From Desulfobacteraceae bacterium (GTDB lineage: Bacteria > Desulfobacterota > Desulfobacteria > Desulfobacterales > JAABTS01): DNA of 60,101 nucleotides. This document shows, piece by piece, positions 54,927 through 60,101 of the stretch. The translations under genes were made by a program, and so were the position numbers. Location: assembly GCA_011389735.1 (NCBI GenBank), contig JAABTS010000012.1, positions 1 through 60,101 of the forward strand, read 5' to 3'. Numbering within the stretch: position 1 is the stretch's first letter; the number at the start of each line of letters is the position of its first letter. The notes beneath the pieces were generated by a model, which saw only the letters and a program-made list of their open reading frames with translations, had not been told where the DNA came from and ran no database searches.

Positions 54927-55493
54927 ATCTTCGCCGATTTGTAATCACGGGGCCGCCCATTTTTTTTCCGATGGCCGCAGTTCATTTGGGTGCATTCCCA
55001 AAAAGTAGATCATGCAACATAAAAATCATCTAACGAATTAGCCATATTTTTTAATAAGTTCCATCTACCGGATTTATAGTATGAGCACAAAAACAAGATT
55101 GCCTCGGCATTTTTGTTTTTCCAAAATATGCCTGGTCCTTTCAACCGCAGATTGACCACCACGCGAACTGCGCTTTCAATAGCGCCACTGCCTAACCCAA
55201 CTTGCGCGGTTAAAAAACACGTATATTCAATTAGTTACGGCGACAGCCCTGTAGCGCTCAGAAAAACCGACCCGCCTTCGCTCAGATAGATTGACCCCCG
55301 TAAAAGTAAATCAGTTTACTCTCTATTCAAGACCACCGCCTTTACAAAAAGATAGATTTTTTTGATACACCATCGAATGTCCTATTTAAATTATCGATTT
55401 GACTTCATATTCACCGCATTATAGTTAAACCTCCTTTGAACCTGATTTTCAATTTATCCGGGATATTGGTTTCCGGTCATCGAGGAGGGAATT
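54927..55493. other. Intergenic junction holding a transposase relic
   Basis: No intact gene is seen in this 567-base gap. It contains a minus-strand transposase remnant (55010-55230). The rest, 55231-55480, is AT-rich without recognisable genes, and no member of the palindrome family is found here. It marks the border between the redox gene cluster and the double-cubane/ABC-transporter genes. Confidence 0.6.
55010..55230 (-). pseudogene. C-terminal fragment of a transposase (ISKra4-like)
   Basis: Translating the minus strand from about 55227 to the stop at 55012-55010 gives 70 or so codons without a start. They contain VGLGSGAIESAVRVVVNLRL, then KGPGIFWKNKNAEAILFL and YYKSGRW. The sequence GSGAIESA.RR.VNLRLKGP.IFW..NAEA..LR....SGRW is, from memory, the C-terminal signature of ISKra4-type DDE transposases. 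A stop codon precedes the fragment. The N-terminal part and the element's ends are missing, so it is a dead relic. Confidence 0.75.
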
Positions 55494-56771
55494 ATGAGTG
55501 AAGACTACCGTTCAATGTGGAAAAATCTTGGGCTTGATCTTGAAGGACACGACGCATTACTCGGCGTGTTGGGTAAAGCTTACCAGGATATTTATCTATC
55601 TCAAAAAAACCGGCCCGAAGGCATGGGGTATTTTGATTTTGTCATGAGCGAGGTGCATGGCCTGCGAATCAAGGAGCTTCTGGATGAAAAAGCGGCCGGT
55701 CGCAGAATTATCGGGTCGTACTGTGTGTTCGTACCCGAAGAAATTGTTTTGGCCGCCAACGCAACTTTGGTGGGACTTTGTTCCGGCGCGGATTTCGCTA
55801 TGGAAGAAGTTGAAAAACTCCTGCCGCGAAACACCTGCGCTCTGATCAAGTCATCTTTCGGGTTCAAGCTCGGCAAGGTCTGCCCTTATCTTGAAAGCGC
55901 CGACATGATCGTTGGAGAAAACACCTGCGACGGCAAAAAGAAAGCCTATGAATCCATGAATGATCTGGTTGAGAATCTCTATGTCATGGATTTGCCCCAG
56001 GTCAAGTCTGAAAACGGCAAGTCCCTTCTCAGGTCGGAATACATTCGTTTCAAGGCGGCGGTGGAAAATCTCACAGGTGTTTCAGTTACTGCGGAATCCC
56101 TGAAAGAAGCCATCAGAACCGTAAACGCCAAACGTTCAGCCATTCATAGACTCTCATCTCTTCGAAAAGCCGATCCGGCGCCGATCTCAGGGCTGGACGC
56201 CCTGCTGGCCAACCAGGTTTTCTTTTACGACAACCCCGCCCGATTTACGGAATCCGTGAACAAGATCTGCGATGAACTGGAACAGCGGATTGCAGACAAA
56301 AAAGGCGTTTTCCCGGAAAAAGCACCCCGTATTCTTGTTTCCGGCTGCCCTCAAGCAGTGCCCAATTGGAAGCTGCCCATGATCGTGGAAGCAGCCGGCG
56401 CCGTAATCGTAGGCGAGGAATCCTGCGTGGGCGAACGCGGGACTCGCAACCTGACCGATGATTCGGGGGAAACGGTGGAACAAATGCTGGACGCCATTGT
56501 TGACCGCTATTTTCAGGTGGACTGCGCCATTTTTACGCCTAATCCGGACCGCCTGGACCATATCCGGGAAATGATCGCCGCATACAAGGCCGACGGCGTA
56601 ATCCATTACGGTCTGCAGTTCTGCCAGCCTTACCTGATGGAATCCATACCGGTTGAAAAAGCGCTGGAAGAAAAAAACATTCCTTGTTTGCGCATTGAAA
56701 CCGATTACGGCGCGGAGGACGCCGGCCAGTTGAAAACACGCATTGAAGCGTTTGTCGAACAACTTCGCTAA
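55494..56771 (+). CDS. Double-cubane-cluster / 2-hydroxyacyl-CoA dehydratase D-component-like protein
   Basis: It has 425 residues and a strong ribosome site (GAGGAGGG). It belongs to the HgdB/BcrB/FldB superfamily of Fe-S proteins that perform ATP-driven low-potential reductions with an activator. The pattern resembles the YjiM/double-cubane group: GSYCVFVPEEIVLAANATLV, GKVCPYLESADMIVGENTCD, ILVSGCPQAVPNWK (near residue 280), VGEESCVGERGTRNL (near 306), DCAIFTPNPDRLDHI and YGLQFCQPYLME. At least ten cysteines are available as cluster ligands. The activator (HgdC-type ATPase) is not adjacent and intact. A NitT/TauT-type ABC transporter follows 45 bases later, which suggests the imported compound is its substrate. 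Confidence 0.88.
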   Translation: MSEDYRSMWKNLGLDLEGHDALLGVLGKAYQDIYLSQKNRPEGMGYFDFVMSEVHGLRIKELLDEKAAGRRIIGSYCVFVPEEIVLAANATLVGLCSGADFAMEEVEKLLPRNTCALIKSSFGFKLGKVCPYLESADMIVGENTCDGKKKAYESMNDLVENLYVMDLPQVKSENGKSLLRSEYIRFKAAVENLTGVSVTAESLKEAIRTVNAKRSAIHRLSSLRKADPAPISGLDALLANQVFFYDNPARFTESVNKICDELEQRIADKKGVFPEKAPRILVSGCPQAVPNWKLPMIVEAAGAVIVGEESCVGERGTRNLTDDSGETVEQMLDAIVDRYFQVDCAIFTPNPDRLDHIREMIAAYKADGVIHYGLQFCQPYLMESIPVEKALEEKNIPCLRIETDYGAEDAGQLKTRIEAFVEQLR

Positions 56772-56816
56772 CAAAAATAAAACCAGATAGGAAATATTAT
56801 GCAAGGAGAATCAATT

Positions 56817-57980
56817 ATGCATCCCAGGAATTTCAACCTGTTTCAAAAAGCCACATCTCGATTCTTGATTAATATAAGTATCGTTCTATTCATTTTCTTT
56901 TTCATTTTTGTTTCCGGATCAGGGGCTTACGATAAGCACACTCCGCGACTTTATCTTGGATATGTTTTTACTACGCATCATACCCCGCTGATGGCGGCTA
57001 TTGACCAGGGGGAGGCGTTTAAGCCGAGCGGCGCATGGCTCAAACCCATGGTAGACCGGCAAAAATATGAGTTGCTGGATAAATCCGGAAATTCCCTGGC
57101 AGTCATCAATTTGATTGTATCTAAAAGCGGCTCGGAAACCTCCACGCTGTTCGCTCAGGGCCGGATGGATATCGGACTATCCTCCAGTACAGCCTTTATC
57201 AGTGGTATCGATAAGGGAACAGCGATGAAAATACTCTGCCCCCTCCACGTCGACGGCATGGGCATGGTATTTCCCAAGGATAGCCAGCTTTCCGGATGGA
57301 AAGATGTCCACGACTATATAAAAAAATCGAAAAATCCGGTCAAAATTGGCTATCATTCACCGACCAGCGCTCCTCGTATCGTTTTTGAAGGAGCTCTTAA
57401 CAAGGCCGGTCTGAGCATTACCGAAGACGCCGCTAACCTGGATGCTGACATTTTGTTGGTCGATCTTAAATCGACCGCTAATCTGATACCAGCATTAGTC
57501 AGTAATCAAGTGGATTGCTGGGTCGGTCCGGCACCGCATCCGTCAGTGGCTGAATATAAAGGCGTGGGACATGTCGCCCTCGATTCCCGCGACTTGCCGC
57601 CGCAAGGTGAATGGCATGATTTCCCCTGTTGCGTCATGGGCGCCAGTGAAGCGTTGATTCAAGAAAGTCCCCAGGTTGTCCAGGCGATGACCGACCTGAT
57701 GACCGCCGCCGGCAACTGGTGTAATATGAATAAGGCCCAGGCTGCGGAAATCACCGGCAAATGGATCGGCGCGCCCACCGCGGCCATCGCAAAATCAACG
57801 ATTATCTATACGACCAACCCAAGCTCTAACTGGATGCGGGGCGAAGCGATTTTCATGGAGATTTTGAACAGTATGAAAAAGCTGAAAGGCCGTTTCCAGG
57901 GAAAAACACTCAAAGAGGTTGAAAACGATATTTATGATTTCCGGTTTATCCGCGCCTCTTTGAAAAACCAGGGGCTTTAG
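56817..57980 (+). CDS. ABC transporter substrate-binding protein (NitT/TauT type)
   Basis: This is the periplasmic binding protein of a nitrate/sulfonate/taurine-type ABC importer. It has 387 residues from the ATG at 56817, preceded by AAGGAG 8 bases upstream; an ATG at 56799 is less well placed. A signal or membrane anchor lies at residues 18-40 (FLINISIVLFIFFFIFVSGSG). The mature part begins PRLYLGYVFTTHHTPLMAAI and continues with SETSTLFAQGRMDIGLSSST, a family ligand-loop stretch. The ligand is unknown. Genes for the permease and ATPase follow. Confidence 0.88.
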   Translation: MHPRNFNLFQKATSRFLINISIVLFIFFFIFVSGSGAYDKHTPRLYLGYVFTTHHTPLMAAIDQGEAFKPSGAWLKPMVDRQKYELLDKSGNSLAVINLIVSKSGSETSTLFAQGRMDIGLSSSTAFISGIDKGTAMKILCPLHVDGMGMVFPKDSQLSGWKDVHDYIKKSKNPVKIGYHSPTSAPRIVFEGALNKAGLSITEDAANLDADILLVDLKSTANLIPALVSNQVDCWVGPAPHPSVAEYKGVGHVALDSRDLPPQGEWHDFPCCVMGASEALIQESPQVVQAMTDLMTAAGNWCNMNKAQAAEITGKWIGAPTAAIAKSTIIYTTNPSSNWMRGEAIFMEILNSMKKLKGRFQGKTLKEVENDIYDFRFIRASLKNQGL

Positions 57981-58007: not shown

Positions 58008-58862
58008 ATGCTATCCGATTCGACCATGAAATCTCAAGTCACTTCTATACTAATACCGGTCATTGTGCCCGTTCTGTTGATAATTGTATGGATTTACGCC
58101 GCCTTGAAGATCGGCAACCAGGTCATTCTGCCGCCGATCGACAATGTTTTGAACCTGCTGGCAAACCCCACGGAAAATCTTATCAGCATGGGATCATTGG
58201 CAAGCAACATTACCGTGAGTCTGGTACGGGTGCTGATGGGATATTTGTTGGCGGCTTCAGTTGGAATCCCCTTGGGCGTGATCATGGGTTATTACGCCCT
58301 GGTTTTTCGGCTGATGAATACGTTTCTCAACTTATTTCGTCCGATTCCACCACTGGCTTGGGTTCCTCTGGTAATGGCCTGGTTCGGCGTGGCAAGCATG
58401 GCCACCGCTTTCGGAGTCGAAACCGGTAAGCTATACATTTATTTGAACAATTTGAAGTTTTCGATGATTTTCATTATTTTTATCGGCGGTTTTTACCCGA
58501 TCCTGACCAGTTCCATCCATGGCGTGGCCGGCGTCAACCGTACCTTGATCGACTCAGCCAGGGTATTGGGAGCCAGTGAATTGCAGGTGTTTCGCAAAGT
58601 GTTGCTGCCGGCGGCCATGCCGTCCATTATCAATGGTCTGCGGATCGGTCTCGGGATTTCTTGGATGTGCTTGGTGTCGGCGGAAATGCTGCCGGGGAGT
58701 ATTTCCGGAGTTGGTTATCTGATTACGCATGCTTATACATTGGCGTCCATCGACATCGTCATCGCGGGTATGATCAGCATCGGCATAGTGGGAATGACGA
58801 TGGACAGAATTTTTCATCACATCGAAAACAGGAGGTATGCCTGGCAGAGGCTGACACGGTAA
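58008..58862 (+). CDS. ABC transporter permease (SsuC/TauC-like)
   Basis: This is the inner-membrane channel of the NitT/TauT-type importer. It has 284 residues and about six hydrophobic segments. The EAA-loop that contacts the ATPase is DSARVLGASELQVFRKVLLP, with AAMPSIINGLRIGLG after it, near residues 183-217. The start is 58008 or the in-frame ATG at 58026; neither has a good ribosome site, so translation is probably coupled to the upstream gene 27 bases away. Confidence 0.92.
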   Translation: MLSDSTMKSQVTSILIPVIVPVLLIIVWIYAALKIGNQVILPPIDNVLNLLANPTENLISMGSLASNITVSLVRVLMGYLLAASVGIPLGVIMGYYALVFRLMNTFLNLFRPIPPLAWVPLVMAWFGVASMATAFGVETGKLYIYLNNLKFSMIFIIFIGGFYPILTSSIHGVAGVNRTLIDSARVLGASELQVFRKVLLPAAMPSIINGLRIGLGISWMCLVSAEMLPGSISGVGYLITHAYTLASIDIVIAGMISIGIVGMTMDRIFHHIENRRYAWQRLTR

Positions 58863-58865
58863 CCG

Positions 58866-59657
58866 ATGTCCCGGGGCAGTATTGATATGACGGTGATTTT
58901 AAGCGCCAATCAAGTTTGCAAGATCTTTTGGACCAATAACGGCGACCGGATCAGGGCCGTTGACACAGTATGTCTTTCCGTTATGGAAAACGATTTTGTT
59001 TGTATCGTGGGGCCGTCAGGGTGCGGCAAATCGACCTTTTTGCGGATCACCGCGGGTTTGGAACCAGCCAGCTCGGGAGATGTTCGATTTCGTGGATTGG
59101 AAATCAAAAAACCTCTCCCGCAGATCGGCCTGGTCTTTCAGGAATATTCGCTTTTCCCATGGTTGCCTGTCATTGACAATGTCGCCTCCGGGCCTGAGTT
59201 CGCAGGAATGAAGAAGGCGAAGCGTTTGGATCTCGCCCGGCATTATCTCGATGTCGTGGGAATGACGGAATTCGCTGCCGCCTTTCCCCACGAGCTTTCC
59301 GGCGGCATGCGCCAGAGGGTGGCCATTGCCAGGGCGTTTGCCAATGACCCCGAGATTCTGTTGATGGATGAACCCTTCGGTTCCCTGGATGCGCATACCC
59401 GGATTCTGATGCAGAAAGAGCTGCTGAGGATCTGGGAAACCCATCGAAAAACCATACTATTTGTGACACACAGCGTGGATGAAGCTGTGTATCTGGCGGA
59501 TCGTGTGGTCGTCATGTCGGCTCGGCCAGGCAAAATTAAAGAAATCCATAAAATTGATATGGGGCGCCCCAGAAGCAGGGCGAATCCATCTTATGGAGAG
59601 CTTACTGACCGGATTTTACAACAGTTGGAGCAGGAAGTCATGGGATTGAAAAACTGA
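58866..59657 (+). CDS. ABC transporter ATP-binding protein (SsuB/TauB-like)
   Basis: This is the ATPase driving the importer. It has 263 residues, or 256 from the in-frame ATG at 58887. Walker A is IVGPSGCGKSTFLRI near residue 49, the Q-loop is GLVFQEYSLFPW, the signature is LSGGMRQRVAIARA, Walker B is ILLMDEPFGSLDAHT, and the switch histidine lies in LFVTHSVDEAVYLAD. It begins 3 bases after the permease stop. Just after its stop lies the activator/dehydratase scar. Confidence 0.95.
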   Translation: MSRGSIDMTVILSANQVCKIFWTNNGDRIRAVDTVCLSVMENDFVCIVGPSGCGKSTFLRITAGLEPASSGDVRFRGLEIKKPLPQIGLVFQEYSLFPWLPVIDNVASGPEFAGMKKAKRLDLARHYLDVVGMTEFAAAFPHELSGGMRQRVAIARAFANDPEILLMDEPFGSLDAHTRILMQKELLRIWETHRKTILFVTHSVDEAVYLADRVVVMSARPGKIKEIHKIDMGRPRSRANPSYGELTDRILQQLEQEVMGLKN

Positions 59658-59676: not shown

Positions 59677-59818
59677 ATGCAATTTGCCGGAATCGATATC
59701 GGGCAACGCACCATCGAACATTCCCTGCATGCGCCTGCATATCGAAATCGATTACGGCGTGGAAGACACAGGACAGTTGAAAACAAGCATCGAAGCTTTT
59801 ATAGAACAGGTAAGATAA
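59677..59818 (+). pseudogene. Fused remnant: activator N-terminus joined to dehydratase C-terminus
   Basis: The ATG at 59677 starts MQFAGIDIGQRTIE, which looks like the first residues of a 2-hydroxyacyl-CoA dehydratase activator (ASKHA ATPase phosphate loop, GIDxGxxT). After about 14 codons a different frame becomes homologous to the end of the double-cubane gene. IPCMRLHIEIDYGVEDTGQL, then KTSIEAFIEQVR and TAA at 59818, resembles IPCLRIETDYGAEDAGQL then KTRIEAFVEQLR at 56682-56771. The junction is near 59710-59720. The simplest reading is a deletion that removed the rest of an activator and nearly all of a dehydratase gene. Confidence 0.7.
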
Positions 59819-59892
59819 AAACCTCATGACCGGGCCGCTCACCCCCGGCCATGAAAATGTATTTTCACGATAAAAATGAAGGAATTGTTTCC

Positions 59893-60101
59893 ATGTTACA
59901 TTATTTTAACAATCCTGCGCATGGTTTAAATCTATCCCGGCAGTGTATGCACTGGTTCGGAATAAAGGCGGCTGTGTCGGCAGCATGGCGCCATGGCCCT
60001 GAGCGTCTGGATTGGATCGAGGAAAACTGCATGGCCTGCGCTTTTACACCGAATCCGGATCGGCTGGATGAGATATCAATGTGGCTGATTCCATATATTA
60101 A
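59893..60101 (+). CDS. Partial ORF with dehydratase-like motif, runs off the window
   Basis: An ATG at 59893, preceded by GAAGGAATTG, opens at least 69 codons to the window edge: MLHYFNNPAHGLNLSRQCMH and so on. Residues 44-69 include LDWIEENCMACAFTPNPDRL then DEISMWL. The CA.FTPNPDRLDxI part matches DCAIFTPNPDRLDHI in the double-cubane gene, where it stands near residue 350 rather than 55. So it is either another dehydratase-family fragment or the start of a gene sharing this motif. The start codon and continuity need the sequence beyond the window. Confidence 0.45.
   Translation, partial: MLHYFNNPAHGLNLSRQCMHWFGIKAAVSAAWRHGPERLDWIEENCMACAFTPNPDRLDEISMWLIPYI

Follow-up and report, generated by a model that had tools for sequence, protein, structure and literature searches.

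Behind the ATPase gene of an ABC transporter operon, the start of an activator gene runs directly into the end of a reductase gene read in another frame, which raises the question of what this short segment is and how it came about. The window analysed here is the entire contig C13 (G000:C13), a stretch of 60,101 nt in a 6.5-Mb draft genome of 477 contigs, and the tail of the segment ends 283 bases before the contig end. We are confident that the segment at 59677-59818 is some form of gene relic, and a single deletion of an activator-reductase pair appears to be its probable, though by no means certain, origin.

Material and methods

Orthologues of the substrate-binding protein (SBP) of the transporter were taken from strain NaphS2, one Desulfovibrio MAG, one Desulfatitalea MAG and genomes drawn from the class and the phylum of the window organism. 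The SBP query gave only weak matches in 58 genomes drawn as relatives, and the orthologues came from other searches. None of the relatives searched for the module belongs to the genus or family of the window organism, and the immediate ancestor thus lies outside the sample. The start of the segment was assessed with an activator N-terminal profile of 18 positions, built from five intact activators of relatives and scanned in six frames over the full 60 kb. The region behind the ATPase gene was checked for a fused open reading frame (ORF) at 19 relative loci. A search of the available literature for a cluster of ABC transporter and double-cubane-cluster protein (DCCP) genes found none.

Results

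The last 5 kb of the window carry an intact operon for DCCP1 and the three transporter subunits (Table 1). The preliminary description had taken the reductase for a 2-hydroxyacyl-CoA dehydratase, an assignment that has to be replaced: DCCP1 scores above the curated cut-off of NF040772, and its nearest solved relatives are the chains 7yyl and 6eno of the Carboxydothermus hydrogenoformans DCCP, which it matches over its full length (residues 4-424, E ~1e-140), whereas the HadC model of the dehydratase HadBC reaches 107 bits against a cut-off of 700. Judged by eye in the alignment, the cysteine motifs of 7yyl are kept (CVxVPEE, GLC, RNxC, CPY, TCDGKKK, CxGER, DC/NCAxFTPN and QFCQPY). The transporter stays below the cut-offs of the SAO family, the permease scoring 165 bits with SaoP (cut-off 295) and the ATPase 237.2 bits with SaoA (cut-off 360), in line with the low SaoX score of the SBP. 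Upstream of DCCP1, the DNA at 55193-55248 is 85% identical to positions 5400-5460 of contig C33. This stretch may be a mobile-element remnant, but Pfam gave no match for the nearby 55010-55159.

Table 1. Genes, relics and repeat at the end of the window (positions in contig C13).
Feature	Position	Strand	Evidence
DCCP1, intact double-cubane-cluster protein, 425 aa	55494..56771	+	NF040772 476.9 bits, cut-off 350
ABC substrate-binding protein, NMT1/SsuA-like, distantly SaoX-like	56799..57980	+	PF13379 E 1e-46; SaoX 30.9 bits, cut-off 300
ABC permease	58008..58862	+	PF00528; top NCBIfam model SaoP, under cut-off
ABC ATPase	58866..59657	+	PF00005; top NCBIfam model SaoA, under cut-off
Relic A1, start (14 codons) of a DCCP-type activator gene	59677..59718	+	Profile E 8.4e-6; 29-33 of 42 bases shared with three intact activators
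Junction AAC, readable as activator GAAC(TGG) or DCCP AAC(ATT)	59717..59719	+	Comparison with intact orthologues, not parental copies
Relic A2, DCCP1-like last 32 codons, stop and 6-bp insertion	59717..59818	+	NF040772 E 6.4e-7; 71% identity to DCCP1 C-terminus
Palindromic REP-like repeat, dispersed between genes, ~62 bp, ~10 genome copies	59813..59878	+	DNA similarity; RNA fold z-score -3.4
Relic B, internal DCCP fragment ACAFTPNPDRLDEI	60034..60075	+	Ungapped score 59; 80% DNA identity over 40 bp to 56518-56557

The segment behind the ATPase stop codon consists of two halves. Relic A1 encodes MQFAGIDIGQRTIE and is the sole significant match of the activator profile in the window, the runner-up of the six-frame scan lying at E ~10. 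Its DNA shares 33 of 42 bases with the intact activator of genome G143 and 29 each with those of NaphS2 and G195, and it carries a Q in place of the S of the intact activators (GIDIGQRT vs GIDIGSRT), which may reflect decay or lineage variation. Relic A2, one frame over, encodes NIPCMRLHIEIDYGVEDTGQLKTSIEAFIEQVR followed by a stop codon; it covers profile positions 343-372 of 372 in NF040772, matches Pfam HGD-D (E 1.7e-5) and aligns with DCCP1 residues 394-425 (E 4e-9). A 6-bp insertion, CTGCAT at 59735-59740, duplicates the neighbouring CTGCAT at 59725-59730. The differences between relic A2 and DCCP1 number six at first, two at second and twelve at third codon positions, and this third-position excess suggests that the parent of relic A2 was probably a working paralogue before it was lost. 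The preliminary description had recognised 14 activator-like codons followed by about 30 codons from the C-terminus of the upstream gene in another frame, and both observations are borne out here. The segment thus shows what is expected of a pseudogene scar, namely two gene parts that are out of frame with each other and intact in relatives, and a fusion that is not conserved.

Two further elements beyond the scar had been missed in the preliminary description. A REP-like repeat begins at the stop codon of relic A2 and contains two palindromes; its copies sit between genes, and its 23-bp core occurs at nine genome sites with up to two mismatches, while the reversed control occurs at none. An Rfam search with the scar and the repeat gave no match. 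Closer to the contig end lies relic B, which aligns with DCCP1 residues about 342-355 and whose ungapped score compares with a maximum of 43 among 60 pieces of 283 bp drawn at random from the window. Since relic B stands 3' of relic A2 and yet matches more N-terminal residues, it points to another DCCP copy or to a rearrangement.

That no activator is visible, as described before, is true within the window but not for the genome. Contig C200 (L023, 1-5417) opens inside a DCCP-type activator, of which the last 98 residues are present and 68-70% identical to the NaphS2 activator; the gene is truncated by the contig end, with its N-terminal part off the contig, and has no visible mutation. It is followed by a 73-aa ORF, a 102-codon half-relic of a DCCP gene (NF040772 E 1.4e-38), a second DCCP gene that is intact (DCCP2), selenium-type genes (YedE-type selenium transporter, TusA-like and Se_S_carrier) and a YjeF-like gene. 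In G143 and G195, too, a relative of the 73-aa ORF comes after the activator. With this activator in the same assembly, the intact DCCP1 is probably not orphaned. A comparison of shared k-mers found no overlap between the end of C13 and C200. Elsewhere in the genome, C33 holds a separate locus with two HGD-D genes and two activator-type genes, which are probably of the benzoyl-CoA reductase type, and contigs C27 and C430 each encode one large fused activase. The full-length activator matches of the genome belong to types that are only 26-40% identical.

The same module was found intact in several relatives, in varying order. The arrangement of transporter, activator and reductase that the preliminary description had proposed to look for is present in G616 (SBP-permease-ATPase-activator-DCCP), but there the activator is more distant (39% identical) and the reductase is DCCP2-like; the exact order ABC-activator-DCCP1 was absent among the relatives examined. 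In G223 the order is DCCP-SBP-permease-ATPase-DCCP1-activator, the activator thus standing after DCCP1, and NaphS2 carries DCCP1-activator-DCCP2 divergent from the ABC genes. The intact NaphS2 activator has 250 aa with the N-terminus MRHAGIDIGSRTIELV and matches 7yyl_E, the ATP-dependent partner chain of the C. hydrogenoformans DCCP. In G143 and G195, DCCP1-DCCP2-ABC is followed by a corrinoid-methyltransferase-like gene (URO-D and B12 domains), the activator and a protein of 66-67 aa, so that the activator follows the ABC genes at a distance of a few kb. Several other relatives have DCCP and ABC genes without an activator inside the stretch examined. A methyltransferase-like gene with URO-D and B12-binding domains adjoins the ABC-DCCP module in a second locus subfamily (L088 3246-4886, L089 10017-11618, L090 and L091).

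Irregular copies of the module were encountered as well. In G125 (L087 5624-8787) the DCCP of the module is disrupted and the substrate-binding gene shortened, and G147 (L081 6048-7176) has a frameshift in the DCCP. In the Desulfatitalea MAG (L056 8001-9363) the operon lacks its permease gene and the substrate-binding gene is fused to that of the ATPase, which may reflect an independent deletion or a misassembly. Both the G147 frameshift and the Desulfatitalea joint may be assembly or sequencing errors.

Discussion

The history that we favour starts from an ancestor in which an activator gene and then a DCCP1-like gene, both on the plus strand, would have stood immediately downstream of the gene for the ABC ATPase. 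A single deletion, about 1.9 kb long as estimated from intact gene lengths, would have removed the activator from codon 15 onward and the DCCP gene except for its last 32 codons. The breakpoints would lie at activator codon 14 and at the asparagine codon of the DCCP motif NIPC, perhaps at the 3-bp overlap AAC. A 4-bp microhomology GAAC was also considered and set aside, since the DCCP orthologues support AAC only. The significance of both halves and the intact orders in G616, G223, G143, G195 and NaphS2 argue for this history, and relic B, the DCCP half-relic on C200 and the disrupted copies of the module in other genomes (G125 and UBA4791) also count in its favour. The earlier proposal that the locus lost an activator and a dehydratase behind the transporter therefore stands as far as the loss is concerned, given the scar and the relatives with both genes beside the same ABC transporter, while the lost enzyme has to be named a DCCP.

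The deleted pair was presumably a redundant paralogous copy. By homology, ATP hydrolysis by its activator would have driven electron transfer to the [8Fe-9S] cluster of the DCCP, and the DCCP would then have reduced a small substrate, perhaps one imported by the neighbouring ABC transporter. The remnant is without the conserved cysteine motifs and retains almost nothing of the activator, and should thus have no function. The genome probably tolerated the deletion of the pair since a further DCCP-type activator persists on C200.

Instead of one deletion, the segment might record the rearrangement or collapse of a tandem array, such as DCCP-activator-DCCP, and C13 may then run across an assembly gap into C200. 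We regard this course of events as possible but rather unlikely. An array of this kind exists in NaphS2, the position of relic B is incompatible with an origin from the same DCCP copy as relic A2, and C200 carries an activator, the 73-aa ORF, a DCCP relic and DCCP2, with the pair of activator and 73-aa-type ORF following the ABC genes in G143 and G195; the lack of overlap between the two contigs speaks against it.

A misjoining of an activator start and a DCCP end during assembly has little probability. In its favour are the fragmented draft, the nearness of the relic to a contig end, the presence of several DCCP copies and the start of C200 in the middle of an activator. However, the other DNA matches of the segment in the assembly are confined to the dispersed repeat and to the intact DCCP1 at only 77%, none of the full-length activator matches of the genome is of a closely similar type, and relic A2 contains a 6-bp insertion of its own and is followed by another relic. 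That the segment is a short functional gene of 50 or 44 codons containing both motifs by chance can practically be dismissed: frames are open from an ATG at 59677 to 59829 and from a TTG at 59684 to 59818, but the homology of each half ends sharply at the junction, the halves lie in different frames and none of the 19 relative loci has a fused or homologous short ORF behind the ATPase gene, which identifies a scar rather than a small gene and removes the case for a conserved gene that the preliminary description had allowed for.

The single deletion preferred here would be an ordinary erosion of a probably redundant gene pair and in itself matters little, although it shows that an activator gene formerly followed the transporter genes in this ABC-linked reductase cluster. 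A 2025 paper describes the biological function of DCCPs as unknown (PMC11971306). For this reason the conserved neighbourhood of ABC, DCCP and activator genes is a more useful lead than the scar, and an importer gene beside the reductase offers a direct way of searching for the DCCP substrate. In the phylum sample, a DCCP above the cut-off was present in nine of the ten genomes with a clear SBP relative (that of the window included) compared to 132 of 395 genomes overall, and in six of those ten the SBP and DCCP genes were adjacent or no more than about 1.2 kb apart (raw count). We consider this co-occurrence and proximity a lead and not a demonstration. Selenium- or sulfur-carrier genes were found nearby in 4 of 19 loci (C200, G223, G195 and G611). 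Our tentative suggestion, made with low confidence, is that the phylum has a conserved module for uptake and reduction, made up of the transporter, one or two DCCPs and the activator and sometimes located beside SelD, YedE, YedF/TusA, Se_S_carrier or a corrinoid methyltransferase-like gene. In that case the physiological DCCP substrate might be a small organosulfur, organoselenium or methylated compound that the transporter imports, and the scar would mark the loss of a redundant activator-DCCP pair from such a module.

Among known systems, the SAO (selenocysteine-assisted organometallic) transporter SaoXPA resembles the transporter of the window, whose permease and ATPase have SaoP and SaoA as their top NCBIfam models, but all three subunits remain under the family cut-offs. 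The 2-hydroxyacyl-CoA dehydratases with their activator and the class I benzoyl-CoA reductases share the superfamily (HGD-D; BcrAD_BadFG), whereas the window scores far under their curated cut-offs. The closest likeness is to the DCCP of C. hydrogenoformans and its ATP-dependent reductase (6eno, 7yyl), with respect to the full-length match of DCCP1, the cysteine motifs and the match of the NaphS2 activator to 7yyl_E. In contrast to that system, the DCCP gene of the window neighbours the genes of an ABC importer, and a scar is all that is left of one activator-DCCP pair.
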